Positions 38,370 through 60,132 of a stretch of DNA of 63,001 bases are shown piece after piece. The DNA comes from an uncultured Eubacteriales bacterium (GTDB lineage: Bacteria > Bacillota > Clostridia > Christensenellales > Borkfalkiaceae). A program made the position numbers and the translations under genes. The notes beneath the pieces are model-generated. The model did not search any database. It was not told the DNA's origin and saw only the letters and a program-made list of their open reading frames with translations. The stretch covers positions 1 through 63,001 of the forward strand of contig CATKEF010000039.1 of assembly GCA_949747905.1 (NCBI GenBank). The letters run 5' to 3'. Position 1 is the first letter of the stretch; each line of letters opens with the position of its first letter.

Positions 38370-41300
38370 TTGAATAAATCGGTAAGCGAGACGATTAAAA
38401 AGAAATTGAACAAAAAAATTATCGCGGCAGTTTCAGCCGTGGCCGCCGTTCTGATTGTTCTGGCAATAGTTTTGCCTATTGTGCTGGGAGCAAACCCCGA
38501 AAAACCTTTTGCGGTTCCCGAAAACAGGCTTCCCACTGAAGAAAAGTATGCGTTGAAAAAATATGACTATGATGATTTGGACGAGGTGCAGACTACTTTG
38601 CGTGCGGACGTTCTCAACGTTACGAAACGCGACCTGCCCCGTCAGACGCCGCAGATACTCGAAGACATTTTTACGCTTGTCTACAATACGGACACTAAAA
38701 CTCTCGGCGCGGCTTACGGTCAGTATAACGCTTCGTCAGTCGAACGTGTTTCGCAGATTACGTTCACCCAATATCCCGCGCCGAATCATACGATTAGTTC
38801 GGCTATGTTTCAGAATGAAGCCGCAGCTGCGTCCGTGACCGAGGCACAGTATTTTACATATTACAAGTATATGCTTATGACCCAGGGTCAGCATCTTGCT
38901 CACGAATCTGCGCGCAGGTCCAGGAGTTCTTACCGCGCGTTCGGGGATTCCACGCCCAGAACGGCAGAAGATTCTCTTACGGGTTGGCTTAAAAAACACC
39001 CCGCCGCGGACGCGCAGTACGGCGCGGTCAAGGGTGAAAACAACGCGGTTGAAAAAGTGATTACGTTAGACCCGTTGTACCGTGGTTATCACGCCGCCGG
39101 GCTTTATCTTCCCGCGGGCGAGGTTGTGACCGTGAAGGTGGAAGGGCTTGCCGCGGGCGAAAGAATCTCAATCAATATCGGAGAACAGAATACTTTGGCT
39201 TGGAGAGGGTCTGTTCCCGGCGCGGCCCTGACCGAGGTAAACAACGAGACGGGCGGCATCAACACGGTGACGTTCAAGGACAGTACTTCGGATAATTTCT
39301 TCAAGCAGGCGGATATGGTTACCGTGCTCGGGAAATTTTACGATTATAACTCGACGTCTACCCCGTTTTTACAGAGTCAATGGAATAGACAGAACAGTCG
39401 TACGCCATGGCTTTCCGCGTCGTTTACTTTTGATAAAAACGGAGAATACGAGATAGGTTTTCCTTTCGGCGGGGTAATGCACATTGCTCCCAATAACTGC
39501 TATTCGGCAGTCAAAACGACTATAACGGGCGCGGTGGAAACTCCGCATTACATACTCGGCGTTACGACTCCTGAATACTTTGACGAGTATCTCAAAGACG
39601 CTCCCGGCGTTGTCGCCGTGCTCGATACGGAAAACGGACAGCTTATTGGCCCTACCGGCGAAATGGGAACAAAAGGCTATATGCGCGGGGTAAAGAAAGA
39701 TGAAATAGATAAACTTGCTATGCTATGGCATTCTTTCTTTTCCGTAAACGAATCTTTCACGGGCGGAGTATATAACCGCTATAATAAAGTTATGTTCGAC
39801 TGGCACGTTCCTGCGGGCGCGGCGGTTGCCCTCGGCGGTCATACGTACGCCTGTCCCACCAGTTGGTTCGGTAACGCTATGAGTTACCGCGGACTTCTTT
39901 CTTACGGACAATGGGGTATTCTGCACGAAGTGGGACACAATCACGGCAGCGTATACGGCTCTATTTGGGGTTTTGCCACGGGAAGAGAGGGCGAGGTCAG
40001 AAATAATGCTCTTACGTTATTGTCGTACATAATGTTCTGCGACGTGGGTACTACAATTAGAATGGGAGGTACAGCCGAACACGGCGGTTATGCCAACCCT
40101 TACAGCGTTTTGACGGAAACCTTGAAATTCAAAGATAAGGGCGAGGATTTCAACGACGGTACTTACGGATATTTTCAATGTCTCGGTATGTATGCGAACA
40201 TAATGCATTCTTTCGGGGCGGAAAAATACTACGAGTTGTTATATACATATAAATCGGTTCCCTCTTATGCTTCCAATAAGCGTGCCGATTTCGCATATCG
40301 TTGCTCGCTTATTTACGGAATGAATTTTATTAAATATTTCAATACGTTTTATTCGGCGAATATTACCGAAACAATGTTTACCGAAGAACAGCTTGCGATG
40401 ATGAACGGATTGCCCGATTATCAGCCCGTGACGAATTTCTATGCGGGTACTATTGACGGCGTAAAGACTTCGGGCGACTATATCGTAACTTTCGGCGATG
40501 ATTTGATTTTCGATTTGAAGGGAAAAACAATCAGTACGCTCGACGACGGAGACAATAAAGGTTTTGAGATAATATCGGTGGAAAAACCTGCGCACGGAAA
40601 TATCGAAAAGCAGGAAGACGGTACATGGAAATATTCGTTCGATAAGACATATATAGGGGTCTTCGACGAATTTTCGTTCAGCGTTAAACTCAAAGACGGC
40701 GTGATTCACAGATTTACGGTGACTCTCAGAATAAACTATAACGGCGGAGAACTCGGTTTTTACGACGAGCTCCCGTCGACCGCCTGGGACGCCGCGGAAG
40801 AGCATATAAAGACTGCGGAACCGCAGGTTTCGTCTCTTGCTCATTCCTATATTCCCTCTTATAATTCCGGAAGAATAAAACAGGCTCGCGTACTGAAATA
40901 TTACTGGAAAGCTCCCGTGAGCGGAGAGGTTTCGCTTTCTGCGCAGAGCGACGACGGCATAAGGCTTTATTTCGGTAAAGATTTCGAAGATATGGAGTTG
41001 CTTTTGCAGTTGGATACGTATAACACGGGATACAGCGACGAAAAAAGCGCCAAGGTTACCGTCGAAAAAGACAAGATGTACGCGGTGAAAATATTAAACG
41101 TGAACGCCGGCGGACCGGGGTCTGCTTCGGTGGCGTATAAAAACGAAGACGGAACATACGTCATTATTCCGGACAGTCAGGTATTCAATCCGTCGCTCCC
41201 GCTCGACAGGGAACTGCCGGTGTATGTGTTCGAACCGCAGTTTATGGTATCCAAGAAGGATAATATCAAAATATCCAATTCGGGTACCGATAAAAGCGAG

Positions 41301-42722
41301 TGGTCGGTTGTGGAAGCTCCCGACGGCAACCGCGTAAGCGACGGAAGATTTATAATCGAACATATGACGGACGAAGAGACGGGCGAAGTCACCGAGTTTA
41401 AAACGGACAAATGGGATTGGCTGGTTGACGGTCAGACAAACACGATTTTCCACACCGCATGGAAGGGTGCCGGCGTGAAGGCTCCCACTCCCGAATCGCC
41501 CGATGTGTTTATTTTCGATACGGCGAGGGAGCAGACTTTCAACTATTTCACGATTACGACGCGACTCACCCATAACGACGATGCAAGAATAACCAAATAC
41601 AGGCTTTCGATATCCTCGGACGGCGTGAATTATAAGACCGTTTCGGCGGCGTTGCCGGAAAATACGGACGATATACTGTCCTATGTAAACACCAACGGTA
41701 CAAAAGTCGCGCAACTTAAGTTCAACGGTGTTCAGGGAAGGTACTGGAAACTGGAAGTTATGGCTACGTCGGGCAGAAATTTCACGATAATTTCCGAGTT
41801 GGATGCGGGTATAATTTCAAATACTCAGAGAGTTGTGCCTTCCACTACCAAACAGTTCTTTACAACGGGTGGCTGGAAGAATTCTTCGGAGTTAGAGGAC
41901 GAGCCGAGCGGTTATATGATTGCCGATAAGGCAAACGAAAAAATGGTTGTAAGATTCCGCGGCGAAAGTTTTGCGATGTATGCCGCGGTGGGCTCGGGAT
42001 ACGGCTCTGCGGACGTTTATCTCGACGGCAGGAAATACGAAACTTTCAGTACGGCGAGCGAACACCCCGAACTGAGAAAACTCGTTCTTAATATTGAAAA
42101 TCTCGAAGATAAGGAGCACACTGTGGAAATCATCACCAATTCGGCAGCTAAACTGATGGTTAATGTTATCGGCATACCCTATACGGCAAGTCTTGTCAAC
42201 GCGCCCAATATTTATCTGGAACGCGCGCTTACGATTTCTCTGGTTGTATTCGTGCTGTTGTTTGTCGCGGTTGCGGCGTTTATTGCCGTTCTCGTATTCG
42301 TACCCAAATTCCGTACAATGGTTTTCGGTAACAAGTTAATGCAAAAGCTCGATAACCGCGAGAAAAAACCTAAACGGGAAAAACCCTCAAAACCCGCCGC
42401 TAAAAAGTCAGCGGAGTCCGAGTCGAGAACGGACAGAGTGAATGCGGCTCTCGCCGAATTGCGGACGTCGAAAAAAACCGAGAATAAAGCGGCGGAGCCT
42501 GCGGCTGCGCCCGTTAAACAGAAAACGGCGGAAAAAACTGTTGTGAAAGCGACGGTCAAGACGCCCGAAACAAAGACAACAGCTGCAAAAAGCACCGTAA
42601 AACAGGCGGAAAAGAAGGAAGCGAAGCCTGCGGCAAAATCAGTTAATAAAGAATCCGAGGCAAAAGCGGCTAAAACACCCGCCAAGCCTGCGGACGGAAA
42701 AACAAATTCCGGTAAAAAATAA
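38370..42722 (+). CDS. Membrane-anchored M60 (enhancin-like) metallopeptidase
   Basis: A 1450-residue protein predicted to cleave O-glycosylated or mucin-like proteins at the cell surface, the known activity of M60 peptidases. The zinc motif HEVGH lies at 519-523, with Glu542 in EVRNN as the likely third ligand. A helix at 17-40 anchors the N-terminus. After the catalytic domain come a PA14-like domain (about 792-935), an F5/8-type discoidin domain (about 965-1140) and another beta-sandwich (about 1155-1277). A second helix (about 1285-1310) follows, then a cytoplasmic tail of about 135 residues rich in Lys, Ala, Pro and Glu. The start is TTG at 38370, seven bases after AAGGAG; the nearby ATG at 38364 meets a stop after two codons. 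It opens the surface-degradation locus. Confidence 0.88.
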   Translation: MNKSVSETIKKKLNKKIIAAVSAVAAVLIVLAIVLPIVLGANPEKPFAVPENRLPTEEKYALKKYDYDDLDEVQTTLRADVLNVTKRDLPRQTPQILEDIFTLVYNTDTKTLGAAYGQYNASSVERVSQITFTQYPAPNHTISSAMFQNEAAAASVTEAQYFTYYKYMLMTQGQHLAHESARRSRSSYRAFGDSTPRTAEDSLTGWLKKHPAADAQYGAVKGENNAVEKVITLDPLYRGYHAAGLYLPAGEVVTVKVEGLAAGERISINIGEQNTLAWRGSVPGAALTEVNNETGGINTVTFKDSTSDNFFKQADMVTVLGKFYDYNSTSTPFLQSQWNRQNSRTPWLSASFTFDKNGEYEIGFPFGGVMHIAPNNCYSAVKTTITGAVETPHYILGVTTPEYFDEYLKDAPGVVAVLDTENGQLIGPTGEMGTKGYMRGVKKDEIDKLAMLWHSFFSVNESFTGGVYNRYNKVMFDWHVPAGAAVALGGHTYACPTSWFGNAMSYRGLLSYGQWGILHEVGHNHGSVYGSIWGFATGREGEVRNNALTLLSYIMFCDVGTTIRMGGTAEHGGYANPYSVLTETLKFKDKGEDFNDGTYGYFQCLGMYANIMHSFGAEKYYELLYTYKSVPSYASNKRADFAYRCSLIYGMNFIKYFNTFYSANITETMFTEEQLAMMNGLPDYQPVTNFYAGTIDGVKTSGDYIVTFGDDLIFDLKGKTISTLDDGDNKGFEIISVEKPAHGNIEKQEDGTWKYSFDKTYIGVFDEFSFSVKLKDGVIHRFTVTLRINYNGGELGFYDELPSTAWDAAEEHIKTAEPQVSSLAHSYIPSYNSGRIKQARVLKYYWKAPVSGEVSLSAQSDDGIRLYFGKDFEDMELLLQLDTYNTGYSDEKSAKVTVEKDKMYAVKILNVNAGGPGSASVAYKNEDGTYVIIPDSQVFNPSLPLDRELPVYVFEPQFMVSKKDNIKISNSGTDKSEWSVVEAPDGNRVSDGRFIIEHMTDEETGEVTEFKTDKWDWLVDGQTNTIFHTAWKGAGVKAPTPESPDVFIFDTAREQTFNYFTITTRLTHNDDARITKYRLSISSDGVNYKTVSAALPENTDDILSYVNTNGTKVAQLKFNGVQGRYWKLEVMATSGRNFTIISELDAGIISNTQRVVPSTTKQFFTTGGWKNSSELEDEPSGYMIADKANEKMVVRFRGESFAMYAAVGSGYGSADVYLDGRKYETFSTASEHPELRKLVLNIENLEDKEHTVEIITNSAAKLMVNVIGIPYTASLVNAPNIYLERALTISLVVFVLLFVAVAAFIAVLVFVPKFRTMVFGNKLMQKLDNREKKPKREKPSKPAAKKSAESESRTDRVNAALAELRTSKKTENKAAEPAAAPVKQKTAEKTVVKATVKTPETKTTAAKSTVKQAEKKEAKPAAKSVNKESEAKAAKTPAKPADGKTNSGKK

Positions 42723-42908: not shown

Positions 42909-43619
42909 ATGAAATTCAGAGTATGCGTTGTGGAGGACAATGACGAAGCAAGCAAACTGCTTTGCGGGTATATCGGAGAATACGGAAAGAGCAAGAATAT
43001 AGATTTCGGCGTCACCCGTTATGCCGACGCGCTTGATTTTCTTGAAGAATTCCGCGGAAATTTCGATATGATTTTTATGGACATAGAGCTGCCGCATATG
43101 GACGGAATGGAGGCCGTGCGCCGCATACGCGAGACGGATAAACACGTTATTGTGATTTTCGTTACCAATATGGCGCAATATGCCGTTAAGGGCTACGAGG
43201 TCAGCGCTCTGGATTTCATAGTAAAACCCGTTTCTTATTCGGCTTTCGCAATAAAGATGGACAGGGCTATCGAGCGCTTCAAATCCGTTCAGGACAGGGA
43301 AATATGGATAACCGAGAGGAACAACAAGCGCAGATTGAGAACTTCCGAGATAAAATACGTGGAGGTCGTGCATCATAGCGTGGTTTTTCATACGACGGGC
43401 GGAGATTATACGACTTACGGTCAGTTGAACGTCGTTTGCGAGGAACTTGCGGACGCTCCTTTCGCGCTTTGCAATCGCTGTTTTCTTGTCAACCTGCATT
43501 ACGTCACCGCGATTGACGATTTTTCGGTGACGGTAGCCGGGGAGAAATTACAGATTTCCCGAAACAGGAAAAAAAGTTTTCTTAAAAGTCTAAACGAGTA
43601 TCTCGGAGGCAAATGGTAG
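42909..43619 (+). CDS. LytTR-family response regulator (AgrA-like)
   Basis: A 236-residue regulator. The receiver domain (1-120) has acidic residues VEDND, the phosphorylation site Asp58 in IFMDIELP, and Lys in FIVKP. The LytTR DNA-binding domain (about 135-236) shows KRRLRTSEIKYVEVVHHSVVF-type strands and FALCNRCFLVNLHYV. It would act as a dimer on direct repeats upstream of target promoters. GGAGGGG precedes the ATG. The kinase begins one base after its stop. Being followed by a GH3 gene and preceded by the M60 gene, its targets are probably these surface enzymes, which is inference. Confidence 0.92.
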   Translation: MKFRVCVVEDNDEASKLLCGYIGEYGKSKNIDFGVTRYADALDFLEEFRGNFDMIFMDIELPHMDGMEAVRRIRETDKHVIVIFVTNMAQYAVKGYEVSALDFIVKPVSYSAFAIKMDRAIERFKSVQDREIWITERNNKRRLRTSEIKYVEVVHHSVVFHTTGGDYTTYGQLNVVCEELADAPFALCNRCFLVNLHYVTAIDDFSVTVAGEKLQISRNRKKSFLKSLNEYLGGKW

Positions 43620-43620: not shown

Positions 43621-44949
43621 ATGCCCACGCTCAACCTTTACCGCCTTCTGTTTATGGCGGAAATCTTTACCGCTGAATTTCTGTTTATGTTCCGTATGGA
43701 AAAGCGCAAGCTGTTCGTTTTGCGGTTTTTGGGCTGTATACTCGTCGGATGCGCGTTCACATTTGCGCTTCCTTTGCATTACAACGCTTTTTACACTTCG
43801 TTTACTTTTTTGTTGTTCTTTTCGGTTACCGTCCCGATGATGAAATTCTGTTGCGACATATCCTGGAGCAATGCTTTCTTCTGCGGAATTGCCGCTTATA
43901 CCATACAGCATTTCGCTTACGGGCTTGCGAACCTGCTGATGACTCTGATAAGTTGGGGAACAAGTCCTATTCTTGGAGTTTATTTCGAGGGTATATTCAG
44001 TTTTTCCTCTTTCGACTGGGGTTCGCTTTTTATCGCGCTCGTTTATGTGCTTGCTTATTACGTCACGTATTCGCTGATGTATATGATATTCCTGCGCAAA
44101 ATAAAGCGCGGCGAGAATTTCAAAATACGCAGTACTTCCATAATGGCGCTTGTCGGAGTGGGACTTGTCGTCGATATTTTCTTCAATGCCGTGGTGGTCT
44201 ATTATGGCGATAACGACAACGTCGTGACCTCCGTTCTGAATATACTCTATGAAAACACTTGCTGTTTCTTTCTTTTGTACGTTCAGTTCGGACTTATCAG
44301 AGCGGGGGAACTCAAAAGCGAACTTACAACCGCGCAAATTCTTTTGCGCGAAAAGGAGAGACAGTATAACCTGTCTAAAGAGAGTATCGAACTCATAAAT
44401 CTCAAATGCCACGATTTGAAGCATCAGATTCGCGCCATAGGCGAGGGCAACAGGCTGCCCGCAAAGACGGTGCGCGAAATCGAGAGCGCAATTTCCATTT
44501 ACGACGCGGAAGTGCGAACGGATAATGAGGTCCTGGACATTATTCTGACGGAAAAAAGCCTGAAATGCGCGGCGGAGGGGATAGCGCTTACTTGCGTCGC
44601 GGACGGAAAATCTTTGGAATTTATGGACAAGACGGACGTCTACTCGCTTTTCGGTAACGCTTTGGATAATGCTATCGAGGCGGTTTTGCGATTGGAGGAG
44701 AAAAAACGAAACGTCGGCGTGGTTGTGCGAAGCAAGGGAGATATGGTCTCTGTCAACGTGCACAATTCGTACGACGGACAAGCGGTGATTGGCGCCGACG
44801 GTTTTCCCGTCACTACAAAGGAGAATAAGAATTTTCACGGTATAGGACTGAAATCGATACGTCAGATTGCCGAAAAATATCACGGAATATGTACAGTGTC
44901 TACGAACGAGGATACTTTTATTCTGAACGTACTTTTGGCGAGAAAATGA
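43621..44949 (+). CDS. GHKL sensor histidine kinase (AgrC-like)
   Basis: A 442-residue membrane kinase, partner of the preceding regulator. Six or seven hydrophobic helices fill residues 1-225. The phospho-acceptor is His264 in KCHDLKHQIR, followed by the N box LFGNALDNAIEAV and the G box FHGIGLKSIRQIAEKYHG of the GHKL ATPase fold. This layout is that of AgrC/ComD kinases, many of which sense peptides within the membrane. No AgrB- or AgrD-like gene is in the window, so the signal is unknown. A 96-residue membrane protein 150 bases downstream could be an accessory partner. Confidence 0.92.
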   Translation: MPTLNLYRLLFMAEIFTAEFLFMFRMEKRKLFVLRFLGCILVGCAFTFALPLHYNAFYTSFTFLLFFSVTVPMMKFCCDISWSNAFFCGIAAYTIQHFAYGLANLLMTLISWGTSPILGVYFEGIFSFSSFDWGSLFIALVYVLAYYVTYSLMYMIFLRKIKRGENFKIRSTSIMALVGVGLVVDIFFNAVVVYYGDNDNVVTSVLNILYENTCCFFLLYVQFGLIRAGELKSELTTAQILLREKERQYNLSKESIELINLKCHDLKHQIRAIGEGNRLPAKTVREIESAISIYDAEVRTDNEVLDIILTEKSLKCAAEGIALTCVADGKSLEFMDKTDVYSLFGNALDNAIEAVLRLEEKKRNVGVVVRSKGDMVSVNVHNSYDGQAVIGADGFPVTTKENKNFHGIGLKSIRQIAEKYHGICTVSTNEDTFILNVLLARK

Positions 44950-45099: not shown

Positions 45100-45390
45100 A
45101 TGATGGATTCAATGAAGAAATTACCATGGGGTATATTCGCGGGGATATGCGGAATAGTCGTTTTCTTTTCGACTGTCGGCGTAATCGCCGCTTTTATTAT
45201 CCTGAGTGCAATCGCGGGTGCGACTTCGGACGGTACGACTCTCTTTGCTACCTGGTATCAGAAAACTTTGTTTGCCGCGGACATAATTTTCGGGGTCGGC
45301 TTGATTCTGTCCGTAAGTATGTTCGTTATAAAGAAGCTCGACAAGAAAAGAGAGAGGGAGGAACTGACAAATGAAGTCCAAAGTGTTTAA
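45100..45390 (+). CDS. Small two-helix membrane protein before GH3
   Basis: A 96-residue protein starting at ATG 45100, seven bases after AAGGAGG; the frame is open further upstream but without a ribosome site. Helices lie near residues 9-32 and 50-72, followed by a Lys/Arg/Glu-rich cytoplasmic tail. Its end overlaps the start of the GH3 gene by 20 bases, so the two are translationally coupled. I do not recognise a family. Coupling suggests it helps place or regulate the membrane-bound glycosidase, or is a small partner of the kinase just upstream. Confidence 0.7.
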   Translation: MMDSMKKLPWGIFAGICGIVVFFSTVGVIAAFIILSAIAGATSDGTTLFATWYQKTLFAADIIFGVGLILSVSMFVIKKLDKKREREELTNEVQSV

Positions 45391-48300
45391 AACAATATTC
45401 ATGCGTTCGGTATGGGCGCTTATTACGGTGTTTTTTGCAATTGTTTTCGTTATTCTCGCTGTGGCGAAGGAAGCTGTCAAACCGCACGAAAGATGGATTG
45501 ACCGTTATTTCGGAGTAAGGCGTACCTTCCTTGTGGACGACGAACCGGAAGAGGGCGAGGAACCCGTGGATACCAACTATTATCCGTCGGTATACGATAT
45601 TTTTACGGGCGAATATGACGGAGACGACCCCGTCAGAAATCTTGATGAATTAATCAAAATGCAGAAGGACGCTCTGGATATTTCCAAAAAAGTCAACGAC
45701 GAAGGTATGACTCTTCTCTGGAACAATAATAACGCCCTTCCCCTCAGCAAGACGGCGGAAAAGAACGTAAGCACTTTTGGAGTGCATTCTCTTGCGCATT
45801 TTGACGGAAAAAACTGGGTTGACAACTGGATTTATCACGGCACGGGCAGCGCGAATATCGACCTGCGTAAAAACGTCGGAATGGTTGAGGAAAACGGGTT
45901 GAATATCGGACCGAGACTTCCGTTGTCCCTTGAAAACCGCAACATCGATTACAATCAGAAACTCTTGGATTCCACGTGGAAATTCCTCGAAAACAAAGAG
46001 ACTCCCAACGGTTACGACGCCGTTCAGTCGGGACAGAAGAAAGACAGAAAGGAAGTTACCTGGGAACAGCTTTCTGGCGATACCGAAAACGACCCTATCG
46101 GAACGATGAAAAGTTCTTATAACGACGCGGCAATCTATACGATAGGCAGATACGAGGGCGAAGGCAAGGACGTCAAGGATAAACTCAGTCTTACAGCCGA
46201 AGAGAAATCGGTTCTTGCGGGACTCAGCGAGCTCAGAGCAAGCAATCAGGTTAAAAAACTCATCGTCGTACTGATTTTTCCCAACCCCATGAATATGAAG
46301 GAGTTCGAGGGATACAATATAGACGCGTGCCTCTGGGCGGGTTACGGCGGCAACACCGCGACCGAAGCCGTATGCGACGTGCTCTGGGGCGACGTTAACC
46401 CCTCGGGTCATCTTGTGGATACATGGGCGTACGATTCCTCTTCCGCTCCCGCGAGCGTGAACTACGGCGACAAGGCGTATGCGAACAATTCTCAGATTGA
46501 CACTAACTACGACGAGGGCGAACATAACGACGCATACGTGGTTTATCAGGAAGGAATATACGTCGGATATCGTTACTACGAGACCCGCTATGAAGATAAG
46601 GTGCTCAATCGCGGCAACGCGGACGCGGAGAAAGGCGTTGTCGCGGGTAGCGGCAAATGGAATTACGGTTCGGAAGTTGCTTATCCTTTCGGCTACGGCA
46701 ACGGCTATACCTCGTTCGAATACAGCAATTATCAGGTTAACAGAACAAGCGACGAAGACGGCAAGACCGTCTACGAAGTTTCAATGACCATAACGAATAA
46801 GGGAAGCGTTGCGGGCAAGGACGTAATGCAGGTTTATCTGCAAAAGCCCTATACCGAATACGACAAAAAGAACGGCATAGAGAAAGCCGCGGTCGAGCTT
46901 GTGGGCTATGCCAAGACCGAAGTGCTTGCTCCGTCCGGTCAGGAGGGCAGCAGCCAGAGACTGACCGTAACCGTTCCCGAATACGAATTCAAGACTTACG
47001 ATATGTACGGAAATAAGACGTACATTCTCGAAAAGGGCGATTATTATCTTGCGGCGGGCTCTGACGCGCATTCCGCTTTGAACAACATACTTGCAATGAA
47101 AGGCAAGACCGTTGCGGACGGTATGGATGCGGCGGGCAGCGCGTCGCTCGTTTACAAAACACATTACGGCAGCGACGACATTCACACATATTCAAAAGCG
47201 ATTGCCGATGACGACGTTAAAGTTACCAATCAGTTTGACGACGCGGACCTCAATCTTTACGAGGGAACTTCCAATCAGAAGATAAAATATCTGTCTCGAA
47301 ACAACTGGAACGAAACCTACCCTGCGGCAATGGTTGAACTCACGGCAACCGAGAAAATTATAAACGACCTCAAATACGAACAGACGGTTCCCAATAACCC
47401 GAACGACAAAATGCCCAAAGAAGGCACGGGCAAACTCGAAGACGTAAAAATCAAACTCATACAGATGAGGGGAGTTCCTTTCGACGACCCGCTCTGGGAC
47501 GACTTCCTTGACCAGTTCTCGTATGCAAACCTTGTGGAACTTCTGAGAACGTGCGCAAGACCTCTTGAAAACTTTGCGATACCCGAGGGTGACGTATACG
47601 ACGGTCCCTGCGGACTTAGAGACGGTTTTATCGACCACGGCGCACGCGTCGCATATCCCTGCGCTCCCATAGTCGCGGCAACTTTCAACGATAAGCTGAT
47701 AGAGGAAATGGCTGAAAACTACGGCGAAGTATTGCGCGCGCACGGCACGCAGGGCGTATGGGGAATAAGCACAAATATTCACCGTCTTCCTTATAACGGA
47801 AGAAACTGGGAATATTTTGCGGAAGACGGTTTCCTTGCGGGCAAAATGAACGCCGCGGAAACGAGAGGACTCACCGCCAAGGGAATTATCGTTTACACCA
47901 AGCATTTTGCAGTAAACAATATTGAAATCAACCGTAACGGCATAAACACGTGGGCTAACGAGCAGACTATTCGTGAAATTTACCTGAAAGCGTTCGAAGC
48001 GGGCGTTACCGAAGCTCCCGCAAACGGTATGATGACCTCTTATAATCGTCTCGGCTGCGAATGGACGGGAACTCACAAAGGGCTTATCACAAACGTTCTC
48101 AAAAACGAATGGGGATTTATCGGCGTAATAGCGACCGACTATCCCGAACGCCAGTATATGGGTCAGGGTCATCCCAGTATCGTTGCCCGCTCGGTAATTG
48201 CCGGTCAGGATGAATGGCTTAAAGACGTTGTAGGCAACGGTCTCGACGGCGACGAGTACAAGAATAACGCTACGTTGCGCATCGCGCTCCGCGATTCGGC

Positions 48301-48602: not shown

Positions 48603-48990
48603 TCGTCCCGCGCCGTCATTGTCATCCCGAGCGGCTTCCTTTTATCATACTGAGTAGTTTCTTGTCATTCCTCGCGTTTTTGTCATCCCGAGCAACGCGA
48701 GGGACCTTTCGCTTCGCTCAGGGTGACAGGAAATGTGTCATCCAGAGCAGATTCCCTTTGTCACCCCGAGCAACGCGAGGGGAGCGGATGTTTCGCTACG
48801 CTCAACATGACTGTAGGGAGAGCGCTCAACATGACAAAAATAATGTCATCATGAGCGAAGCGAGGAACCCTTCGGCTAGCCTCAGGGTGACGCTCCTGTC
48901 TGTCATTCCGAACGAAGTGAAGAAGCAGACCCTTCGGCGAGCCTCAGGGTGACATAGGGTACTCAGGGTGACAAAGGGACAGGGTGACAC
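48603..48990. repeat. Dense dispersed-repeat array
   Basis: About 390 bases made almost wholly of the repeat family in mixed orientation. GTCATCCCGAGCAACGCGAG-GG is at about 48691, a variant GTCACCCCGAGCAACGCGAG-G at about 48760, and CTTTCGCTTCGCTCAGGGTG-AC at about 48708. GATGTTTCGCTACGCTCAAC-ATGAC is near 48787, and CCCTTCGG-CTAGCC/CGAGCC-TCAGGGTGAC occurs twice near 48878 and 48930. Ten or more partial units are recognisable. No gene is visible in the 1135-base gap 48509-49643 except the doubtful unit below. Confidence 0.8.
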
Positions 48991-49336: not shown

Positions 49337-49530
49337 TTTGGATGACAGATTCCTCGCTACCGCTCGGAATGACAACGGGCGGAATGACAAAGGGAATCTG
49401 CTCTGGATGACACATTTCCTGTCACCCTGAGCGAAGCGAAAGGTCCCTCGCGTTGCTCGGGATGACAAAAACGCCCGGGATGACAAAAACGCTCGGGATG
49501 ACAAGAGTGCTGGACGATAAGGGTAATCGT
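49337..49530. repeat. Dispersed repeat cluster upstream of the Ig-like lipoprotein
   Basis: GATTCCTCGCTACCGCTCGG-AATGAC near 49348, GTCACCCTGAGCGAAGCGAA-AGGTCCCTCGCGTTGCTCGG-GATGAC at about 49421-49467, and several shortened CTCGGGATGACAA units after it. The array ends about 110 bases before the start codon. Confidence 0.75.
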
Positions 49531-52600: not shown

Positions 52601-55256
52601 TCAGGCGACTCCTGCGGCTACGATTACCGGCGCTTATGCCTTCGGTAAACTGGAAATCAACGGAGTTGCGGCAACAATCAAGAGCGACGGCGGAGTAAAA
52701 GCCGAGCAGTGGGCGTTGTGGCACGTTATAGAAGTTGCTACGGTGAAACTTGAAAAGGGCGCGAATACCATAAGTTTATGGGCTTCGACCAACAATACCA
52801 ACTTCGACTTTATAGAGATAGTTTCCGACGCGGTCGTTCGCTGGGCAGACGAGACGAACGGCAAAATGTGGAGCGACTGGACGATTGATGTTGTTCCCGC
52901 CGCGGCTGCGGAAGGCAGCATGCATCGCGTGAGCAGTCACGGCGACGTCGAGACCGTAACGCTTCCCGCAAATCTCGAAGGCGGGGCGTATTCGGTCGTA
53001 CGTACGGTGGAAAGTACGGCATATCTGGCGGGCTACACCGAGTATTCCTACAACGGATATACCTTTAAAGTCACCACAGCGGCGGTCGGCGAAGCAAAAG
53101 ACAACGTTTTCGAATACGAGTATGCCAAGCATTCGCAAGTTCTCGGCGGAACCGTATATACCGCGGAGAACCGCGGTGAAGCGGTTTCCTTGGGTGCGAG
53201 CAGTAAAAATCTTTCTTCCGTATTTAAAATCCGTTCGGGCGCGGCGGCAACCGTAAAACTTTATATAAACGGCGGCGCTTGCGGTTCGGCGATAAATTAC
53301 TCTCAAAGACTCATGATTACGATAAACGGCAAGCCGTTTGCGATAAGAACGGACGCTATACTTGCGCCGAGAGCTTCGTCTGCGGTCAACGCAAATTATT
53401 TCGACTGGCACTATACTTTCATCGGCGAATTCGAAGTAAGCGAGGGAATAAACGAAATAGTCATAACGAATTACGGCGGCACTTTGACTAATCTTGATAA
53501 TATAAAACTCGTTTCGGCGGCGGACATAGCGTGGGAAACTACGGAAATCGCGCTTAAAACGGCTCCCGATAAAACCGAATATTCCGTCGGGGAAATGTTT
53601 GACTCAAACGGTATGGTTGTAGAGGCGCGGTATGTCGTCAACGACAAGGTGTTCGGCTATGTCAACGAGATAGCTTATTCATTCGTTGCGGAAGGATGGA
53701 CCGTAGACGACGGCGATACGCCTTTCGAACTCGGCACGACTTTCGTAACCGTTCGCTACGGAACGTTTACGCTCGAAGTACCCGTTATCGTTAAAACCGA
53801 CGATATCGTAAGCATCGTTATAAAAAACAAACCCGAAATTCTTCATTACATGCCCGAACAGCAGTTTTCGGCGCAGGGCATGGACATTTACGGCATAGGT
53901 TCCGACTCTTCGGAATTCGAACTTTCTGCCGAACAGTACGAAGTTACCTTGTCCGAATGGGTTGAAGGCGCTGTCACCGTGACGGTGACTTATAAGGATA
54001 AAACCGACCTTACAGCCGAATTTACGATTGTCGTCGCGAGCAATACCGTAAGACTTGAAGCTGAGGGCGCTGAATTTGCCGAAGTTTACAGTGATTTTCA
54101 GGTGGCAAGCGAAAACGGCAACCAGTCGGGATTTGCGCGTATTGCGAACTGGAACAACGTTAAAAACAAGATTGTGTTCGGCGTGTATTCCGATGAAGCG
54201 GTAAATGCCGATATTTACGCCGCTGCCCAGGCGACGCCTGCGGCGAACCTCACCGCCTCTTACTTCATAAGCAAACTGGAAGTCAACGGGAAAATTTATA
54301 CCGTCAATTCGCAGAACGGTGTGACTGCGGGCGCATGGACTACCTGGCATGAATTGTTTGTGGCGACGGTTGCTCTTCGAAAGGGCGAAAATACAATCGC
54401 TATTTACGGTATGTCGAACAAAGCGAATTTCGACTATCTCGATTTGCGTTCGGCTACCGACGTTCGTTGGACGGATGAAACCGACGGTAAAATGTGGGGA
54501 GAATGGATACTCTCTGCGGCTCCCGAGAAAGAGACGGACGGCAAACTTTACCGTGTAAGCAGCCACGGCGACGTGGAGACTTTGATACTTCCCGCCGACC
54601 TTGAAAGCGGAGCTTATACATTAGTCGAAACCGTTGAAGCTACGGCATATGTGGCGGGGTACAAGGTTTATTCGGTTACTCTTGACGACAAAACTTACTC
54701 TTTCAAAGCAGAGAACGGTTCCGCTTCCGGAGAGGTTGCCGACCATATATTCAGTGCGAGAATTGCGGACGGCGAGGGTACTGTAAGCGGGTACAAAAAC
54801 GCAACCAACCCTCCCAAAGCGGACGGAACGGGTGACAATCTCGGACTTGCGGTTTCCAAATTCGGAACGCTGAGCTACAACCTTACGGTTTCTGCGGACG
54901 CTACCGTGGATTTATCGTTCAACCTTGCGCCCACTAAAGGAGCCAACTGTTACATTTCCGGTTCGGTGTTTATTTTCATTGACGGTGAACTTTACCTCTA
55001 TTCAGATAACGTTTACACGAACAGCAATACTCCGAATTACTTCACTTATTCCGATTATGCGGTTACGTCTTTTGACTTAACAGGTGGAGAGCACACCGTA
55101 ACGTTTATGTTCGGCGGCTGCAATGTCGGAGTACTAAAAAGCGTCAACTTCAAATCCGTAGCGGATATTTCTCTCACATCTTCCGAACCGTATGTTCCTG
55201 AAGCGACTTTTGCGGAAACGGCTGTTGCCGATGAAAAGCGTTTATACGCGGCGTAA
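49644..55256 (+). CDS. Giant Ig-like / carbohydrate-binding-like lipoprotein
   Basis: A 1870-residue surface protein without a catalytic motif. A hydrophobic signal ends in LFGGC (Cys near residue 31), a lipobox-like site that would tether it to the membrane. About eight Ig-like (Big_3-type) domains share the pattern I-[TA]-K-x-PDKTEY..GE.FD.TGM. They alternate with six beta-sandwich domains resembling carbohydrate-binding modules (for example RLEAEG...GWNN..NK). The order is four Ig, sandwich, linker, sandwich, then twice two Ig, sandwich, linker, sandwich. The linker has the form W-x2-W; the first copy also has a CPVC pair (GHGWTDW...RYCPVC), which the later two lack. ATG 49644 lies four bases after AGGAGG; ATG 49650, ten bases after, is equally possible. 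It looks like a glycan-binding scaffold. Confidence 0.8.
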   Translation: MHMSKKNRLKPALLVLLSVAFAVSLCLFGGCVNNDPKEPELTSIAITKQPDKTEYVAGESFDKTGMVVEATYDNDEKETVTDYTVAPGGALKLTDTFVTVTYKGKTARQDITVSEAPKAVSIAVTKMPDKINYFTGDTFDKTGMEVTATYDDGSSAAVTDFAVNVKKFDSAGDVKVIIIYDGLTAQFAVTVTDPALTALEITKEPDCTLYDIGENFDATGIMLIARYANGVTKPVSVDDCLISHAGEALEESITEIEFSFTDGEVTKTVAQPIRVIRLTLTGIIVSEGTVCTEYGVGDKFDKSGMVVLGIYNNDDGITRIITEWEVLDADKTLTVGDEAMTVRHGDFEYSLKITVLPKYIFEAEALGYEVKEGTDAKLRRGFEYGSVGSGGTPENVDWNFVSGTGILINMHTVNALTLDVTAADAAEVTLIMNFTSHAANAGDKQYISGILSTIEVNGTEYAPLPDAATVRSENSLRYNDYQEVIVLKKLPLIKGANTLKFIFTASYNFDYVAIRSDKVITLTAEKESGHGWTDWQVVKAPTATEAGEMGRYCPVCAAKEIVVLPANLADGSVYTLVSTEEATYAEAGYKTYTYDGKTFKVKTAEALGEATEVLYDFEDARLDTSFNEAYGIFDSGLDTTANRGSHGKGAQKFNDGGGRFIWTVYANTDATVKMQVRLGRNATRYCNPTFNMRLNVNGKYILTDYTKYAGLNGMSTTSYFDWVYVDFAEFEVKAGENVIYVDALASSFTNVDDVKFISVSDIANSADKMIDKVEITKAPDKTEYFTTERFDATGMIVTATYKDGTSAPVTDYYVDSIGLLSADTEVIAIYYQGKVVNQPVTVTIHTATLLSIEVTKAPDKTEYVAGESFDATGMIVTAIYDDESTATVSYEDLKVTVADPLTGATTVVTLEYEGKTAVVDITVLYKSRLEAEGGDWSETGATVKMFNENGTQSGIARVSGWNNAANKVSFDVYAEEETTVKIYAAVQATPAATITGAYAFGKLEINGVAATIKSDGGVKAEQWALWHVIEVATVKLEKGANTISLWASTNNTNFDFIEIVSDAVVRWADETNGKMWSDWTIDVVPAAAAEGSMHRVSSHGDVETVTLPANLEGGAYSVVRTVESTAYLAGYTEYSYNGYTFKVTTAAVGEAKDNVFEYEYAKHSQVLGGTVYTAENRGEAVSLGASSKNLSSVFKIRSGAAATVKLYINGGACGSAINYSQRLMITINGKPFAIRTDAILAPRASSAVNANYFDWHYTFIGEFEVSEGINEIVITNYGGTLTNLDNIKLVSAADIAWETTEIALKTAPDKTEYSVGEMFDSNGMVVEARYVVNDKVFGYVNEIAYSFVAEGWTVDDGDTPFELGTTFVTVRYGTFTLEVPVIVKTDDIVSIVIKNKPEILHYMPEQQFSAQGMDIYGIGSDSSEFELSAEQYEVTLSEWVEGAVTVTVTYKDKTDLTAEFTIVVASNTVRLEAEGAEFAEVYSDFQVASENGNQSGFARIANWNNVKNKIVFGVYSDEAVNADIYAAAQATPAANLTASYFISKLEVNGKIYTVNSQNGVTAGAWTTWHELFVATVALRKGENTIAIYGMSNKANFDYLDLRSATDVRWTDETDGKMWGEWILSAAPEKETDGKLYRVSSHGDVETLILPADLESGAYTLVETVEATAYVAGYKVYSVTLDDKTYSFKAENGSASGEVADHIFSARIADGEGTVSGYKNATNPPKADGTGDNLGLAVSKFGTLSYNLTVSADATVDLSFNLAPTKGANCYISGSVFIFIDGELYLYSDNVYTNSNTPNYFTYSDYAVTSFDLTGGEHTVTFMFGGCNVGVLKSVNFKSVADISLTSSEPYVPEATFAETAVADEKRLYAA
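52425..54590 (+). repeat. Duplicated ~1600-base unit inside the lipoprotein gene
   Basis: The segment from RLEAEGGDWSE (about 52428) to the linker KMWSDW and SSHGDVETVTLP reappears from RLEAEGAEFAE (about 54051) with KMWGEW and SSHGDVETLILP. The two protein copies match in most positions, with a period of about 1620 bases, so the Ig-Ig-sandwich-linker-sandwich unit was duplicated as a block. Confidence 0.75.
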
Positions 55257-55644: not shown

Positions 55645-58600
55645 ATGAACATTTTTTATAAAACTCTGAAAAGGGGACTGTGGACAGCGCTCACGTCGAT
55701 ATTTGCCGTACTTATGGTCGGCTTTATTGTGGGCGGTGTTATTGCGGACGGTTTTAAAAGAACCATAAACGACTATTTCGGTCTGGAAAATTACCGTACC
55801 GAAGTTGACGAAAACGCCGAAAAAGTGCATTACGAGTCGGAATTTCAGAAAGCCGACGGCACTTACGACGACGCGGCTCTCTGGAACGAGGGCGTCAAGG
55901 TTTCCGACCGGATTCAACGCGAGGGAACTACCATTTTGTGGAATAAGGATAAGAACGGAAACGTCGGTCTGCCGCTCGGCGAGGGGACGAAAGTCAGTTT
56001 GTTTTCGCATTCGGTGGTTGACTTCGTGTATTCGGGCGTAGGTTCGGGAGGCGTGCTTACGAGAAATGTCGCAAACCTCAAAACGGCGTTTGAAAACGCG
56101 GGGCTGAAAGTTAACGATACGCTCTGGAATTTTTACAAGAGCGGTCCCGGCAGCGACGATAAGTATAAGAGGGCTACATACAGTAAAGTCAGCGAAGTGC
56201 CCTGGTCGCTTGTGAACGATAACTGCAAATCGAGTTTCAACGGAACGGCGGGCGTGTTCGTTATTTCGCGTCAGGCGGGAGAGAGCGGAGAAACCGACGC
56301 AAGCATGTCTACCGCGGATACCATTACCAAGGACTATTTTTCCCTTCACAAGAATGAAAAAGAATCGATAGAGGGGATGATTCAATCAAAGAAGAACGGC
56401 GCTTTAAGTAAAGTAATTATAATGCTTAATACAGCCGCAGGCATCAATTTCGACCTTTTGGCGGAATACAAAGACGACATTGACTGCTGTATCTGGGTTT
56501 GTCAGCCAGGGTGGGAAGGCATCAACGAGATAGGCAGGATTTTTTCCGGCAAGTCTGTTCCTTCGGGGCATATCGTCGATACGTTTTTATACAATAACTT
56601 TTCCGCTCCCGCTTCCGTAAACGCGGAATTTATGTCCTATTCCAACGCTCATACCGCTGGTCTCAAAGATATGCAGTTTCAGGCAAACTACATAATTTAT
56701 GCGGAAAACATCTACGTCGGATATAAATATTTCGAAACGCGTTACGAAGACGCGGTAATGAATCAGGGCAACGCTTCTTCTAAAACGGGTGCGAAAAATT
56801 CTTCGGGAAACTGGAAATACGGCGAGGAAGTCGCGTTCCCGTTCGGTTACGGCGTGACTTATACCGATTTTGACTATTCGGGTTTTTCCGTGACCAAAAA
56901 CGATAACGGCGATTACGACGTATCTTTGACAGTTACGAATACGGGTTCGGCGGCAGGAATGGACGCGGTTCAGATTTACATTCAGAAACCGTACACGGCT
57001 TACGATAAGCAGCACGGACTGGAACAGTCTGCGGTCAATCTCTGCGGCTATAAAAAGACCGGGCTTATAGCGGCGGGCGGCAGCGAAGAAGTTACGGTTA
57101 CAGTATCCAAAGACGCGTTCAAGACTTATGATGACGACGGTTATAAAACTTACATAATGGAGGACGGCGTTTATTATATAACCGCCGCCAAGGACGCGCA
57201 CGACGCGACGAACAATATTCTCTCCAAGAAAGGATACACACCGACGAACACTTCGGGCGTGATGGACGCGGAGGGCAAATCTTCGCTCGTGTGGGAGTGG
57301 GAGAATAAAAAACTCGATACCTCGACTTTTGCCAAATCTTCCACGAACTACGATATCACAAACCGTTTCGAGGATACGGACTGGAATAAGTACGAACATA
57401 AGACGGACGGCGAAGTGACATATCTTTCGCGAAGTGATTGGAGCGGAACGTGGCCCAGACCGCTCAGCCTGTCGCTGAATGCGGAAATGGTGAAAGACCT
57501 TGACTGGGATAAAGAAATACTCGCAAATCCCAACGACAAATTCCCCAAGTACGAGCAAGAGCATCTTTTCGATATCGTCGATATGAGAGGCTTGGAGTAC
57601 AGGGCCGCGGCGTGGGATACTCTGCTCGACCAGACAAGTCTGGAAGAACAAATTACTTTCCTCGGTAAAGCGTATCACGGTTGCCCCGCGATACTGTCCA
57701 TAAATTTCGTGGGCGAAAAGACTGCGGACGGTCCTATGGGACTGAGACAGCGGTACAAGACCGACGCAAATGCAGGCGGAGCGGGCGGATACTGTATGTC
57801 TTTCCCTTGCGAACCTCTGCTTGCGGCGAGCTTTAACGACGAACTCGCTTATCGTGCGGGACAGTTGAAAGGCGAGGATATGCTGCACGTAGGATATACC
57901 GGAATATACGGCACAGCGCCCAACTTACATAGAACAATCTGGGGCGGACGCGCATACGAATATTATTCCGAAGACGGTTTCATTTCGGGAATTATGGCGA
58001 AATGGGAGACCATGGGGATTCAGGAGAGGGGCAACTATGTCAACCTCAAACATTTCGCGCTGAACGACCAGGAGAGCAACCGCCACGGGGTAAATATTTG
58101 GAGCAACGAACAGGCGATACGCGAAATATATCTGCTCGCTTTCCAGCCTTCCGTGGAGGAGGCGAAAGCCAAGGGTATAATGTCTTCGTTTACGCGTTTC
58201 GGTACTCTCTGGAGCGGCGCTCACCGCGGTCTTTGCACCGAAGTGTTGCGCAACGAATGGGGATTTGACGGCTTTGTGATTTCCGACTGCGCATGGCGTA
58301 AGTATATGGGCGTTGTGGACGGACTTGCTGCCGGCAACGACAATATTCTTTACGAAAGCACCGATTTGACTGCATACTATGATGCGAGAACAAATCCTAC
58401 GGTTGCCAAATTAATAAGAGAATCGACGCATAGAGTTCTGTACGTTCTTGCAAACAGCAACGCGATGGAAGGCTATGCTCCGGGGATGAAGATAATACCC
58501 GTCACCAACTGGTGGCAGGGGGCGCTCATCGCGGCTCAGGCGGTGTTCGGCGTTCTTACCGTTGCGAGCGCGGCGTTTATGGTTATGAGCTATGTGTTCG

Positions 58601-60132
58601 TAAACAGAAGAAAAGAAGTGCTTATAGCCGAAGGAAAGATGAACTCCGAAGGCAGGTATCTCGATAAAAACGGCGGAATAAAGAGTTTCAAGGTGCGCAA
58701 TATCGCGCTCATCACTTCCGCGACTGCCGTGTTGCTTGCCATAGTGCTCGTCGTTTCGCTTGTAATCGTTCCGATGATACAGAGCATCTTTGCCGGCGAA
58801 GATTACGAGGCGAATATAGGCGGCGGAGGCGGCGCCGTGCATGTTTGCGCGCACGTATGCGCTGTCTGCGGCAAGTGTAAGGACGAAACGTGCGAAAACG
58901 CCGTATGCTCGTCTAAGTGCGGAGGGCATCTTGTGGAAACGCTGCCCGAGGGATACACAACTTATACGTTCGAAGCCGAGTGCAGCAAGCTGGTGACAAG
59001 CGACCCCGCGTCCTGTAAGGCGGGCAACGAGGGCAAACAGACAAACAACCCCGGCGGCGGACAATATATAATGAATATGTCCAAAGTTTCTCAGGCTTCG
59101 TGTACGTTCAACATAACTTCCGACAAAGCGGAGAAAGCCGTGTTGTTCCTCAGAATGGGGCACCGCGAAGCGGAATATGCTTGGAATAAAATGTTCACGA
59201 TGACGGTGAACGGCGCGACAGTTTCCTCCGATTACGTGTTTCCCGTTATGCGGTCGGGAGGAAGACAGTATTTCGACTGGCAGGACAACGAAATCGCGAT
59301 AATCGACCTGAAAGAGGGCAATAACGTAATAGTATTGAATAAAGTTACGAACGGACTTAACTTCGATTCGCTTAAACTTGCCACGGTTGCGGAATTGGAA
59401 TGGACTTCGGAAGCGGGCAAGGGTCATACTTACGGAGACTGGGAACTCGTTACCGCTCCCACCGAAACGGAAAGAGGGCTTGTGGGAAGCTATTGCGTAA
59501 CCTGCCGCGACTACAAGGAAGCCAAACTCCCTGCAATTTCCGAAGATAACGGATATACCAAGAAGGTTATCAAAGAAGCGGGACCCGATACGTTCGGCGA
59601 AGCGGAATGGAGTTATATGTTCGAAGGTTGCAAGTTCGGTTTCCGTTCTCTTTTGTATCCTACTTCGGGCGAAACGAGTTTGAAGAGATTTGAGTGCGAA
59701 GATATGAGAATGACCGGAACGGCAAAAGTAAACAGAGAGGGTGGTTCCAATAACCCCAGCGGAGGTTACTATGTCGCGGGCTTCTCTTCCAACGACGCAA
59801 GCATAATTTTCGAGTTCGAATCGGATAAGGAGACGGACGTAGTGTTCTACATAGGTTTCGGTTGCCGCAACGACAGAACAATTAATTTCAACAACGCGTT
59901 CATCCTTTCGTTGAACGGTTCTCGCGTTACGGTCGGAAAAGACGTCGAATTCACGGGCGCTGACAGTACGTTCAACTACTTCAACTGGCAGAGATTCATG
60001 ATAGTTACTTTGCACGTGACCGAAGGTGTGAACAGGCTTGTTCTCGAGGACAACAACAAAGCGGTCAGCAGTAACCTGGACTACTTCGAGTTCCTGGGTA
60101 CGGCGACGCTTACCGCAATAAAAGACGAATAA
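55645..60132 (+). CDS. Membrane GH3 glycosidase with extracellular binding tail (GH3-2)
   Basis: A 1495-residue relative of GH3-1 with the same permuted order. A helix (11-35) is followed by the alpha/beta domain (VAFPFGYGVTYTDFDYS), a fibronectin-like domain, and the barrel with GPMGLRQR, KHFALND and nucleophile motif VISDC (Asp881). It then differs. Helix two (about 955-985), a basic loop (986-1018) and helix three (about 1019-1045) return the chain outside. There a Gly-rich, Cys-rich knot (VCAHVCAVCGKC) leads to two beta-sandwich domains joined by GHTYGDW...YCVTC. That tail is the same composite module as in the Ig-like lipoprotein. The site AAGGAA before ATG 55645 is moderate. Enzyme class is sure; substrate is unknown. 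Confidence 0.9.
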   Translation: MNIFYKTLKRGLWTALTSIFAVLMVGFIVGGVIADGFKRTINDYFGLENYRTEVDENAEKVHYESEFQKADGTYDDAALWNEGVKVSDRIQREGTTILWNKDKNGNVGLPLGEGTKVSLFSHSVVDFVYSGVGSGGVLTRNVANLKTAFENAGLKVNDTLWNFYKSGPGSDDKYKRATYSKVSEVPWSLVNDNCKSSFNGTAGVFVISRQAGESGETDASMSTADTITKDYFSLHKNEKESIEGMIQSKKNGALSKVIIMLNTAAGINFDLLAEYKDDIDCCIWVCQPGWEGINEIGRIFSGKSVPSGHIVDTFLYNNFSAPASVNAEFMSYSNAHTAGLKDMQFQANYIIYAENIYVGYKYFETRYEDAVMNQGNASSKTGAKNSSGNWKYGEEVAFPFGYGVTYTDFDYSGFSVTKNDNGDYDVSLTVTNTGSAAGMDAVQIYIQKPYTAYDKQHGLEQSAVNLCGYKKTGLIAAGGSEEVTVTVSKDAFKTYDDDGYKTYIMEDGVYYITAAKDAHDATNNILSKKGYTPTNTSGVMDAEGKSSLVWEWENKKLDTSTFAKSSTNYDITNRFEDTDWNKYEHKTDGEVTYLSRSDWSGTWPRPLSLSLNAEMVKDLDWDKEILANPNDKFPKYEQEHLFDIVDMRGLEYRAAAWDTLLDQTSLEEQITFLGKAYHGCPAILSINFVGEKTADGPMGLRQRYKTDANAGGAGGYCMSFPCEPLLAASFNDELAYRAGQLKGEDMLHVGYTGIYGTAPNLHRTIWGGRAYEYYSEDGFISGIMAKWETMGIQERGNYVNLKHFALNDQESNRHGVNIWSNEQAIREIYLLAFQPSVEEAKAKGIMSSFTRFGTLWSGAHRGLCTEVLRNEWGFDGFVISDCAWRKYMGVVDGLAAGNDNILYESTDLTAYYDARTNPTVAKLIRESTHRVLYVLANSNAMEGYAPGMKIIPVTNWWQGALIAAQAVFGVLTVASAAFMVMSYVFVNRRKEVLIAEGKMNSEGRYLDKNGGIKSFKVRNIALITSATAVLLAIVLVVSLVIVPMIQSIFAGEDYEANIGGGGGAVHVCAHVCAVCGKCKDETCENAVCSSKCGGHLVETLPEGYTTYTFEAECSKLVTSDPASCKAGNEGKQTNNPGGGQYIMNMSKVSQASCTFNITSDKAEKAVLFLRMGHREAEYAWNKMFTMTVNGATVSSDYVFPVMRSGGRQYFDWQDNEIAIIDLKEGNNVIVLNKVTNGLNFDSLKLATVAELEWTSEAGKGHTYGDWELVTAPTETERGLVGSYCVTCRDYKEAKLPAISEDNGYTKKVIKEAGPDTFGEAEWSYMFEGCKFGFRSLLYPTSGETSLKRFECEDMRMTGTAKVNREGGSNNPSGGYYVAGFSSNDASIIFEFESDKETDVVFYIGFGCRNDRTINFNNAFILSLNGSRVTVGKDVEFTGADSTFNYFNWQRFMIVTLHVTEGVNRLVLEDNNKAVSSNLDYFEFLGTATLTAIKDE

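Follow-up and report, generated by a model that had tools for sequence, protein, structure and literature searches.

Permuted, membrane-anchored GH3 enzymes beside LytTR-GHKL pairs in a Borkfalkiaceae genome: probable surface beta-glycosidase modules under local sensors

Response regulators having a LytTR DNA-binding domain are known mainly for their roles in peptide signalling and in the control of virulence, and most GH3 enzymes are exo-enzymes that act on short substrates. The permuted GH3 subfamily reportedly also includes BrGH3A (PMC11233000). Its type enzyme is GlyA1 (PDB 5K6L), for which Asp-709 and Glu-143 are described (PMC5104943). A link between LytTR regulators and GH3 enzymes was found in one paper only, in a literature search that was thin on subscription journals: in Butyrivibrio proteoclasticus B316, the loci PUL7, PUL21 and PUL33 have LytTR regulators near secreted GH3 enzymes with a C-terminal TM helix, and the authors suggested in 2010 a common function for these loci (PMC2914790). 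This description consists of one sentence concerning three loci of one genome, and in the accessible part of that paper neither the permutation nor an N-terminal anchor is mentioned. Gram-positive PULs (gpPULs) are defined by a polysaccharide-degrading enzyme, a carbohydrate transport system, and a transcriptional regulator, and one arabinoxylan gpPUL lists a LytTR regulator (PMC5320581).

The DNA analysed here, referred to as the window, is a stretch of 63,001 nucleotides of an uncultured Eubacteriales gut bacterium of the Borkfalkiaceae (contig CATKEF010000039.1). Its features are listed in Table 1. A sequence-only reading of this DNA had described a 22-kb surface locus, and its account of the gene content agrees with the Pfam scan, which identifies Peptidase_M60 (at 2.9e-30), Response_reg plus LytTR followed by HATPase_c_5/GHKL, two GH3 enzymes with the permuted order GH3_C, Fn3-like, GH3_N, having hydrophobic segments on both sides of the enzyme parts, and the 1870-residue protein with four Big_3 stretches, whose lipobox is recognized by eye and whose best start is the ATG at 49644. 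All of these genes are indeed on the same strand. Their contiguity is loose between GH3a and the lipoprotein, because a 1.1-kb gap is present there, with a 110-nt inverted repeat whose arms are 95% complementary and 611 nt apart. The small membrane protein, absent from the earlier description, overlaps the start of GH3a by ~20 nt; its ORF was called from TTG 44989, and an ATG near 45100 is probably the best start.

Table 1. Features of the locus in the window
Feature	Position	Strand	Basis
M60 (enhancin-like) metallopeptidase	38370..42722	+	Pfam; hydrophobicity; synteny
Response regulator, receiver and LytTR DNA-binding domain	42909..43619	+	Pfam
GHKL sensor kinase, ~6 hydrophobic segments, then HATPase_c_5	43621..44949	+	Pfam; hydrophobicity
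Small membrane protein with 2 or 3 hydrophobic segments	~45100..45390	+	ORF and hydrophobicity
GH3a, permuted GH3 anchored at both ends	45371..48508	+	Pfam; hydrophobicity; alignment
Repeat-rich gap with inverted repeat	48659..49489	.	sequence
Lipoprotein, 1870 aa, Big_3 domains and probable binding modules	49644..55256	+	Pfam; lipobox by eye
GH3b, permuted GH3 with three hydrophobic segments and a long C-terminal part	55645..60132	+	Pfam; hydrophobicity

The absence of an importer, as stated before, is also in agreement with the Pfam scan, which covered eight of the larger sense-strand ORFs of the interval: the six ORFs with a Pfam family include no SusC/D, PTS or ABC importer. Among the scanned ORFs of 38370-62672 there is no carbohydrate transporter, no SusC/SusD pair as in the PULs of that type, and no glycosidase family other than GH3. 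When compared with the gpPUL definition (PMC5320581), the locus shares a local transcriptional regulator, here of the LytTR type, and it differs in that the required transporter is absent from the scanned ORFs; its GH3 enzymes might take the part of the polysaccharide-degrading enzyme, but members of this family mostly cleave short substrates from the end. The B316 loci (PMC2914790) resemble it in having a LytTR regulator near a GH3 enzyme that is secreted and membrane-anchored; what the present analysis adds is a copy number of ~20 in a 1.6-Mb genome, the kinase subfamily, the occurrence in many taxa, and the comparison with unanchored enzymes.

GH3a is composed of a sandwich domain, an FnIII domain, and a TIM barrel, and this order, as well as the positions of the nucleophile and the acid/base, is shared with GlyA1. 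The nucleophile in the barrel (D923, GH3a numbering) is kept in 48 of 48 aligned GH3 proteins and the glutamate of the sandwich domain (E264) in 47; the latter is the putative acid/base, by its position when compared with Glu-143 of GlyA1. For the two window proteins, the domain order is from Pfam, and for the other 46 from full-length alignment. Unlike GlyA1, the window enzymes are anchored at both ends and are beside a two-component system; the word 'transmembrane' occurs zero times in PMC5104943. Residues and family scores fit relatives of beta-glucosidases and xylosidases rather than a mucin-specific enzyme. GH3b has a likeness to the lipoprotein (71 bits, 26% identity). A motif of the C-terminal 95 residues, W-[WYFQ]-x7-[DEN], is found in only 10 of the 48 proteins of the genus, 9 of 80 others, and 2 of the 12 with low scores, and was dropped.

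The 1.6-Mb genome of the window has 23 GH3 matches, two of them in the window, which is striking in itself, as 16 genomes from other families of this order have zero to six; a first genome scan, with GH3b as sole query, confirmed no relative among 13 candidates. Of the 23 matches, 20 are long frames (open frames of at least 900 aa, used as a proxy for permuted enzymes), and 17 of these 20 proteins pass as anchored on both sides, as estimated from Kyte-Doolittle hydrophobicity, the other three being on contig C52. In the tree, these paralogues are interspersed among sequences from other taxa. Ten permuted GH3 proteins with low scores against the anchored set, nine of them unanchored, form a clade of their own with support 1.0, in a tree that did not include GlyA1, and three further unanchored permuted enzymes are outside this low-scoring group.

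The regulators are closely linked to these enzymes. Genome-wide, all 10 LytTR domains of the window's genome are within 10 kb of a GH3. In seven GH3-rich genomes, taken from the 26 genus genomes with at least six GH3 enzymes, 57 of 62 LytTR domains have a long-frame GH3 at a distance of at most 10 kb, 56 of them on the same strand, with ~7.5 expected (computed without clipping contig ends). When considering the enzymes, a LytTR domain within 10 kb is found for 79/103 long-frame GH3s versus 3/13 GH3s of 600 to 899 aa; by hand count, seven of the 20 long-frame GH3s of the window's genome, including GH3b, have none at this distance. GH3 and LytTR counts correlate over 81 genus genomes (Spearman 0.82): all 26 genomes with at least six GH3s carry 2 to 11 LytTR domains and 42 of the 55 others carry none. 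The GH3 copy number ranges from 0 to 27 in the genus, the highest being that of a 2.8-Mb assembly with 6% contamination (G061); the genus samples, of 61 and 81 genomes, were drawn from a larger group. A count of 21/21 from regions of relatives is biased and is no proof, because these regions were picked for holding GH3 or M60.

The conserved unit is smaller than the 22-kb locus and is repeated; it consists of the LytTR-GHKL pair, a permuted GH3 anchored at both ends, and a lipoprotein of the binding type, often with the small membrane protein as well. We consider it probable that the window contains one copy among many of a module in which a surface beta-glycosidase is governed by a local sensor. 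From these features we infer the surface topology, the substrate, the ligand, and the control of the adjacent GH3: the kinase and the regulator would control the neighbouring GH3 and lipoprotein, and the GH3 would act on the outer face of the membrane, freeing a terminal sugar of the glucose or xylose type from plant-derived glycosides or oligosaccharides captured by the lipoprotein. A related small ligand may be sensed by the divergent membrane domain of the kinase, on which the regulator would switch on its own module. The paralogues would be old and diverse, such that ~10 sensor pairs and ~20 enzymes per cell could serve different glycosides. The many anchored copies beside a sensor-regulator pair suggest surface enzymes that are switched on by several signals, in loci that lack an importer such as utilisation loci usually have.

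The same link is observed outside the genus. Among the best 80 of 591 loci of named records, chosen by likeness to the anchored GH3, at least one of them belonging to the genus of the window, a kinase-regulator pair within 6 kb is found for 31 of 60 doubly anchored permuted GH3s (29 have none), for 3 of 14 anchored on one side, and for 0 of 14 unanchored ones, one of which has a pair 14 kb away. This count excludes seven proteins truncated at a locus end and one locus lacking a usable GH3. When searching with the kinase subfamily to which the window kinase belongs, nine of nine strong matches have an anchored permuted-type GH3 within ~6 kb, and none of the seven weaker matches has one nearby, two of the latter being in regions of 11 to 12 kb with the match near a contig end; in both searches, the permuted type is assigned by the score against a full-length model. 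The strong matches are at most 46% identical to the training kinases and come from at least six of 244 other genomes of the class, these numbers being lower bounds because only some of the candidates in each genome were scored. The nine represent seven lineages, since three of them are 85 to 97% alike. The kinase subfamily predicts an anchored, surface sugar-cutting enzyme in other genera and families, and if the link is causal, it provides a code from which to read the glycosides that are sensed and cleaved by uncultured bacteria of the gut.

Kinase and nearest-GH3 distances are uncorrelated, in the genus (r 0.05, p 0.34), in the window's own genome (r 0.27, p 0.08), and in the other loci (r -0.01, p 0.56); strict co-divergence is significant in none of six sets, and fixed kinase-enzyme pairs are not supported. 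This would agree with clustering that results only from variable, horizontally moving surface islands, having enzymes and regulators without a regulatory link, as would the range of GH3 copy numbers and the intermixed paralogues. Such islands are a very unlikely explanation, given the 57 of 62 regulators near a GH3, mostly on its strand, the absence of pairs within 6 kb of unanchored permuted enzymes among the best 80 loci, and the prediction of the enzyme by the kinase across genera and families.

LytTR regulators would use direct repeats spaced by 21 bp. Such repeats are enriched near modules (25 of 182 regions, with a mean of 8.2 at other spacings), and since the enrichment is also seen far from modules (38 of 432, with a mean of 18; p 0.07), it is not module-specific. 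No clear repeat of this kind is found in the window by de novo search, and no pair of LytTR-consensus boxes was found where 0.53 were expected.

The M60 protein, of a mucinase-type family, has an F5/8 type C module, a PA14 match just below the cut-off, the HExxH motif as HEVGH, and a hydrophobic segment on each side. With these properties, and with all genes on one strand, the locus could be a single apparatus, as proposed in the sequence-only reading, in which M60 cuts mucin-type glycoproteins, the GH3s trim the glycans, the scaffold binds, and one regulator controls all. One relative (G021, contig C158) has the same succession of M60, regulator, kinase, lipoprotein, GH3, and GH3. Close M60 homologues (57 to 62% identity) are found in five genus genomes besides that of the window, and some M60 match is found in 29 of the 61 sampled, but in the stretches fetched round the close homologues, M60 adjoins the LytTR-GHKL-GH3 block in this one relative only, the other four (three of them being whole contigs of 5 to 14 kb) showing no GH3 module beside it. 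Close homologues also occur in genomes with only one to three GH3s (G008, G018, G052), and the scanned ORFs of the locus have no further glycosidase family. The single apparatus is thus unlikely, and M60 seems to be a peripheral neighbour rather than the core of the module. Of the earlier proposal, the regulated, membrane-bound surface enzyme system with no importer in the interval is supported, and the regulator-GH3 link is strongly conserved; a single glycoprotein-stripping apparatus around a mucinase is not supported. PADLOC gave no match for the two proteins tested, M60 and GH3a, and an anti-phage function was rejected.

The kinase and the regulator had also been labelled AgrAC-like. Their domain types, a GHKL kinase with a polytopic sensor and a LytTR regulator (Pfam), are those of AgrC and AgrA, and in this respect only is the label appropriate. 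If the pair were an Agr-like system for peptide quorum sensing, a pheromone would be sensed by the kinase, with the GH3s merely among the targets. This is hardly probable, and agr quorum sensing was rejected, as the AgrB processing protease is above the cut-off in none of seven genomes (one weak match is below it) and the pairs are linked to the anchored enzymes. In the seven kinases compared from the window's genome, the sensor half is the divergent part, with a mean identity of 27% versus 46% for the ATPase. Besides the favoured modules under local sensors, it is conceivable, at a very low probability, that the doubly anchored GH3 is itself part of the sensor, forming a complex with the small membrane protein and the kinase and reporting surface turnover directly to the latter; this would be a catalytic receptor, of which a single small genome would hold nine or ten.

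Proteins weakly like the lipoprotein (41 to 67 bits) recur at other GH3 modules, and counterparts of the small membrane protein precede relatives of GH3a on contigs C43 and G015:C9 and in a locus from rabbit gut (L110), in which the whole order of regulator, kinase, small protein, GH3a, and lipoprotein is found again.

The genes assigned to this locus by the sequence-only reading are confirmed, namely an M60 peptidase, a LytTR regulator, a GHKL kinase, the permuted enzyme GH3a (domain order GH3_C, FnIII, GH3_N), a Big_3 lipoprotein of 1870 aa and a second permuted enzyme, GH3b, all six being encoded on the + strand. The contig that carries them (C39, 63 kb) belongs to a genome of 1.62 Mb that is 97% complete. 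The gene of a small membrane protein lies between the kinase and GH3a genes, overlapping the GH3a start by ~20 nt, and a 1.1-kb gap, rich in repeats, separates GH3a from the lipoprotein. In this gap there is an inverted repeat (arms of 110 nt, 95% complementary, spaced by 611 nt) built from 'GTCATCCCGAGC'-like units, and one 21-base unit from it has no exact match across 167 fetched loci. The same reading had also suggested that these genes form a regulated, membrane-bound apparatus for stripping glycoproteins, and here the peptidase and the core part ways. The M60 gene is scattered independently: close homologues (57-62%) are found in 5 of the 60 other genus genomes examined, including genomes with just 1-3 GH3 genes, and within the fetched stretches only that of genome G021 adjoins a regulator-kinase-GH3 block. 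The regulator-enzyme core is not scattered.

The GH3 enzyme and the LytTR regulator belong together. Their numbers per genome rise together across the 81 genomes of the genus sample (Spearman 0.82, Pearson 0.95). When genome-wide positions are considered in seven GH3-rich genomes, a long-frame GH3 (open frame of at least 900 aa, a proxy for the permuted type) is located within 10 kb of 57 of the 62 LytTR domains, with ~7.5 expected, and on the same strand for 56 of these; the five other domains belong to G014 (three), G042 (one) and G069 (one). From the enzyme side, a LytTR domain is present within 10 kb of 79 of 103 long-frame GH3 genes, versus 3 of 13 GH3 genes of 600-899 aa. In the genome of the window all ten LytTR domains, one of them decayed, have a long-frame GH3 within this distance, and 13 of its 20 long-frame GH3 genes have a LytTR domain so placed (hand count); GH3b is one of the other seven, its nearest LytTR being ~14 kb away. 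In a decayed pair on contig C52 the LytTR match holds a stop and the kinase is in two frames, and downstream of it there is an open GH3 frame of 1219 aa.

The gene order of the window (regulator, kinase, small protein, GH3a, lipoprotein) is repeated in L110, a locus from rabbit gut, and is preserved as far as the GH3 in contig C9 of G015; on contig C43 of the window's genome these four genes are present in a different order. In several modules a small protein with two to four hydrophobic segments abuts the GH3 start, and a Pfam scan of two of four members of a small multi-span family (L027, L033) gave no match. Single-linkage clustering of neighbour proteins groups 16 loosely related, mostly lipoprotein-like members from 13 fetched loci in 6 genomes; the four scanned members have a CBM-like domain, a Big_3 domain, an esterase-type domain with repeats, and no domain, respectively. 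Next to one permuted GH3 there are MBOAT and AMP-binding genes, which resemble the first two genes of a D-alanylation operon.

Coordinates of features in the window and in fetched loci (L numbers)
Feature	Sequence	Coordinates
Inverted repeat, GH3a-lipoprotein gap	window	48659-49489
ORF of 2325 aa	window	7135-14112
ABC ATPase and FtsX-type permease	window	32186-34910
ABC ATPase and FtsX-type permease (second locus)	L047	3881-7472
Decayed pair	L027 (G000:C52)	868-2465
Split GH3	L034 (G000:C76)	9760-11438
MBOAT and AMP-binding genes immediately downstream of permuted GH3	L025 (G000:C58)	3927-7175
Small multi-span membrane protein adjoining permuted GH3	L027	12907-13449
Same family	L028	1478-1900
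Same family	L033	12657-13148
Same family	L054	13715-14128

The linkage extends to other taxa, where it follows the predicted membrane anchoring of the enzyme. Among 80 named loci (the best 80 of 591 by likeness to the anchored GH3), a LytTR-GHKL pair lies within 6 kb of 31 of 60 GH3 anchored on both sides (27 same-strand), of 3 of 14 with one-sided anchoring and of none of 14 unanchored ones. Ten low-scoring permuted GH3, nine without anchors, form a single clade (support 1.0) in a tree of 138 proteins; the unanchored GH3 of L067, L076 and L100 have scores like those of the anchored set. Carriers with a pair include Lachnospiraceae, Oscillospiraceae, Olsenella, Bifidobacterium asteroides and Cellulomonas. 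A model built from 30 kinases and run on 244 other genomes of the class gives, among the candidates scored, nine strong matches in six genomes; these fall into seven lineages, and none shares more than 46% identity with the kinases used for training. In all nine regions a permuted-type GH3 with an anchor lies no more than about 6 kb from the kinase, on the opposite strand in two cases, in one of which the anchor is on the N-side only; none of seven regions with weaker matches has such an enzyme. The passages of PMC2914790 on Butyrivibrio proteoclasticus put a LytTR-GH3 link in print in 2010, for three loci, and those of PMC5104943 describe the permuted topology (2016). Our literature search found no report of anchoring as the dividing line between pair-linked and unlinked GH3, of a kinase subfamily predicting the GH3, of the spread of the link over taxa or of GH3 expansion in small genomes.

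The genome of the window has 23 PF00933 matches, including GH3a and GH3b. Twenty are long frames alignable to GH3a end to end; the remainder are one conventional GH3 (801 aa) and two short frames, one at a contig end and one split into two abutting ORFs, the latter likely a pseudogene or an assembly error. Of the 48 aligned GH3 (these 20 and 28 from relatives), every one retains both the nucleophile, an Asp, and the KH pair, and 47 retain the acid/base Glu. In the 138-protein tree just two of the 20 copies are mutual sisters, nine fall within the genus and nine with copies including other taxa, several supports being low; the set thus looks old and diversified, not recently amplified. GH3 numbers per genome range from 0 to 27 in the genus sample (at least six in 26 of 81 genomes) and from 0 to 6 in 16 genomes of the order's other families.

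Of the three parts of seven kinases of this genome, the sensor half is the least conserved (mean identity 27%, with 42% and 46% in the others), which would fit a different ligand for each kinase. Distance matrices of the kinases and their nearest GH3 show no correlation, in a comparison where the nearest GH3 may be the wrong partner if modules are tightly packed. Given this, modules probably swap sensors and enzymes among themselves, and such exchange would speak for pairing at the level of the ligand rather than strict protein-protein pairing. The family scores of the GH3 enzymes, all far under the curated cut-offs, suggest kinship with beta-glucosidases, xylosidases or arabinopyranosidases. 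Direct repeats with 21-bp spacing occur upstream of some GH3 genes and are not specific; across the fetched loci (614 intergenic regions), direct repeats spaced by exactly 21 bp are over-represented generally, also beyond GH3 modules. Elsewhere in the window, the 2325-aa ORF, which has no Pfam match and is overlain by an antisense ORF of 772 aa, has polysaccharide-synthesis-type genes as neighbours, and a G002 relative of the ABC ATPase (60% identical) adjoins a permuted GH3.
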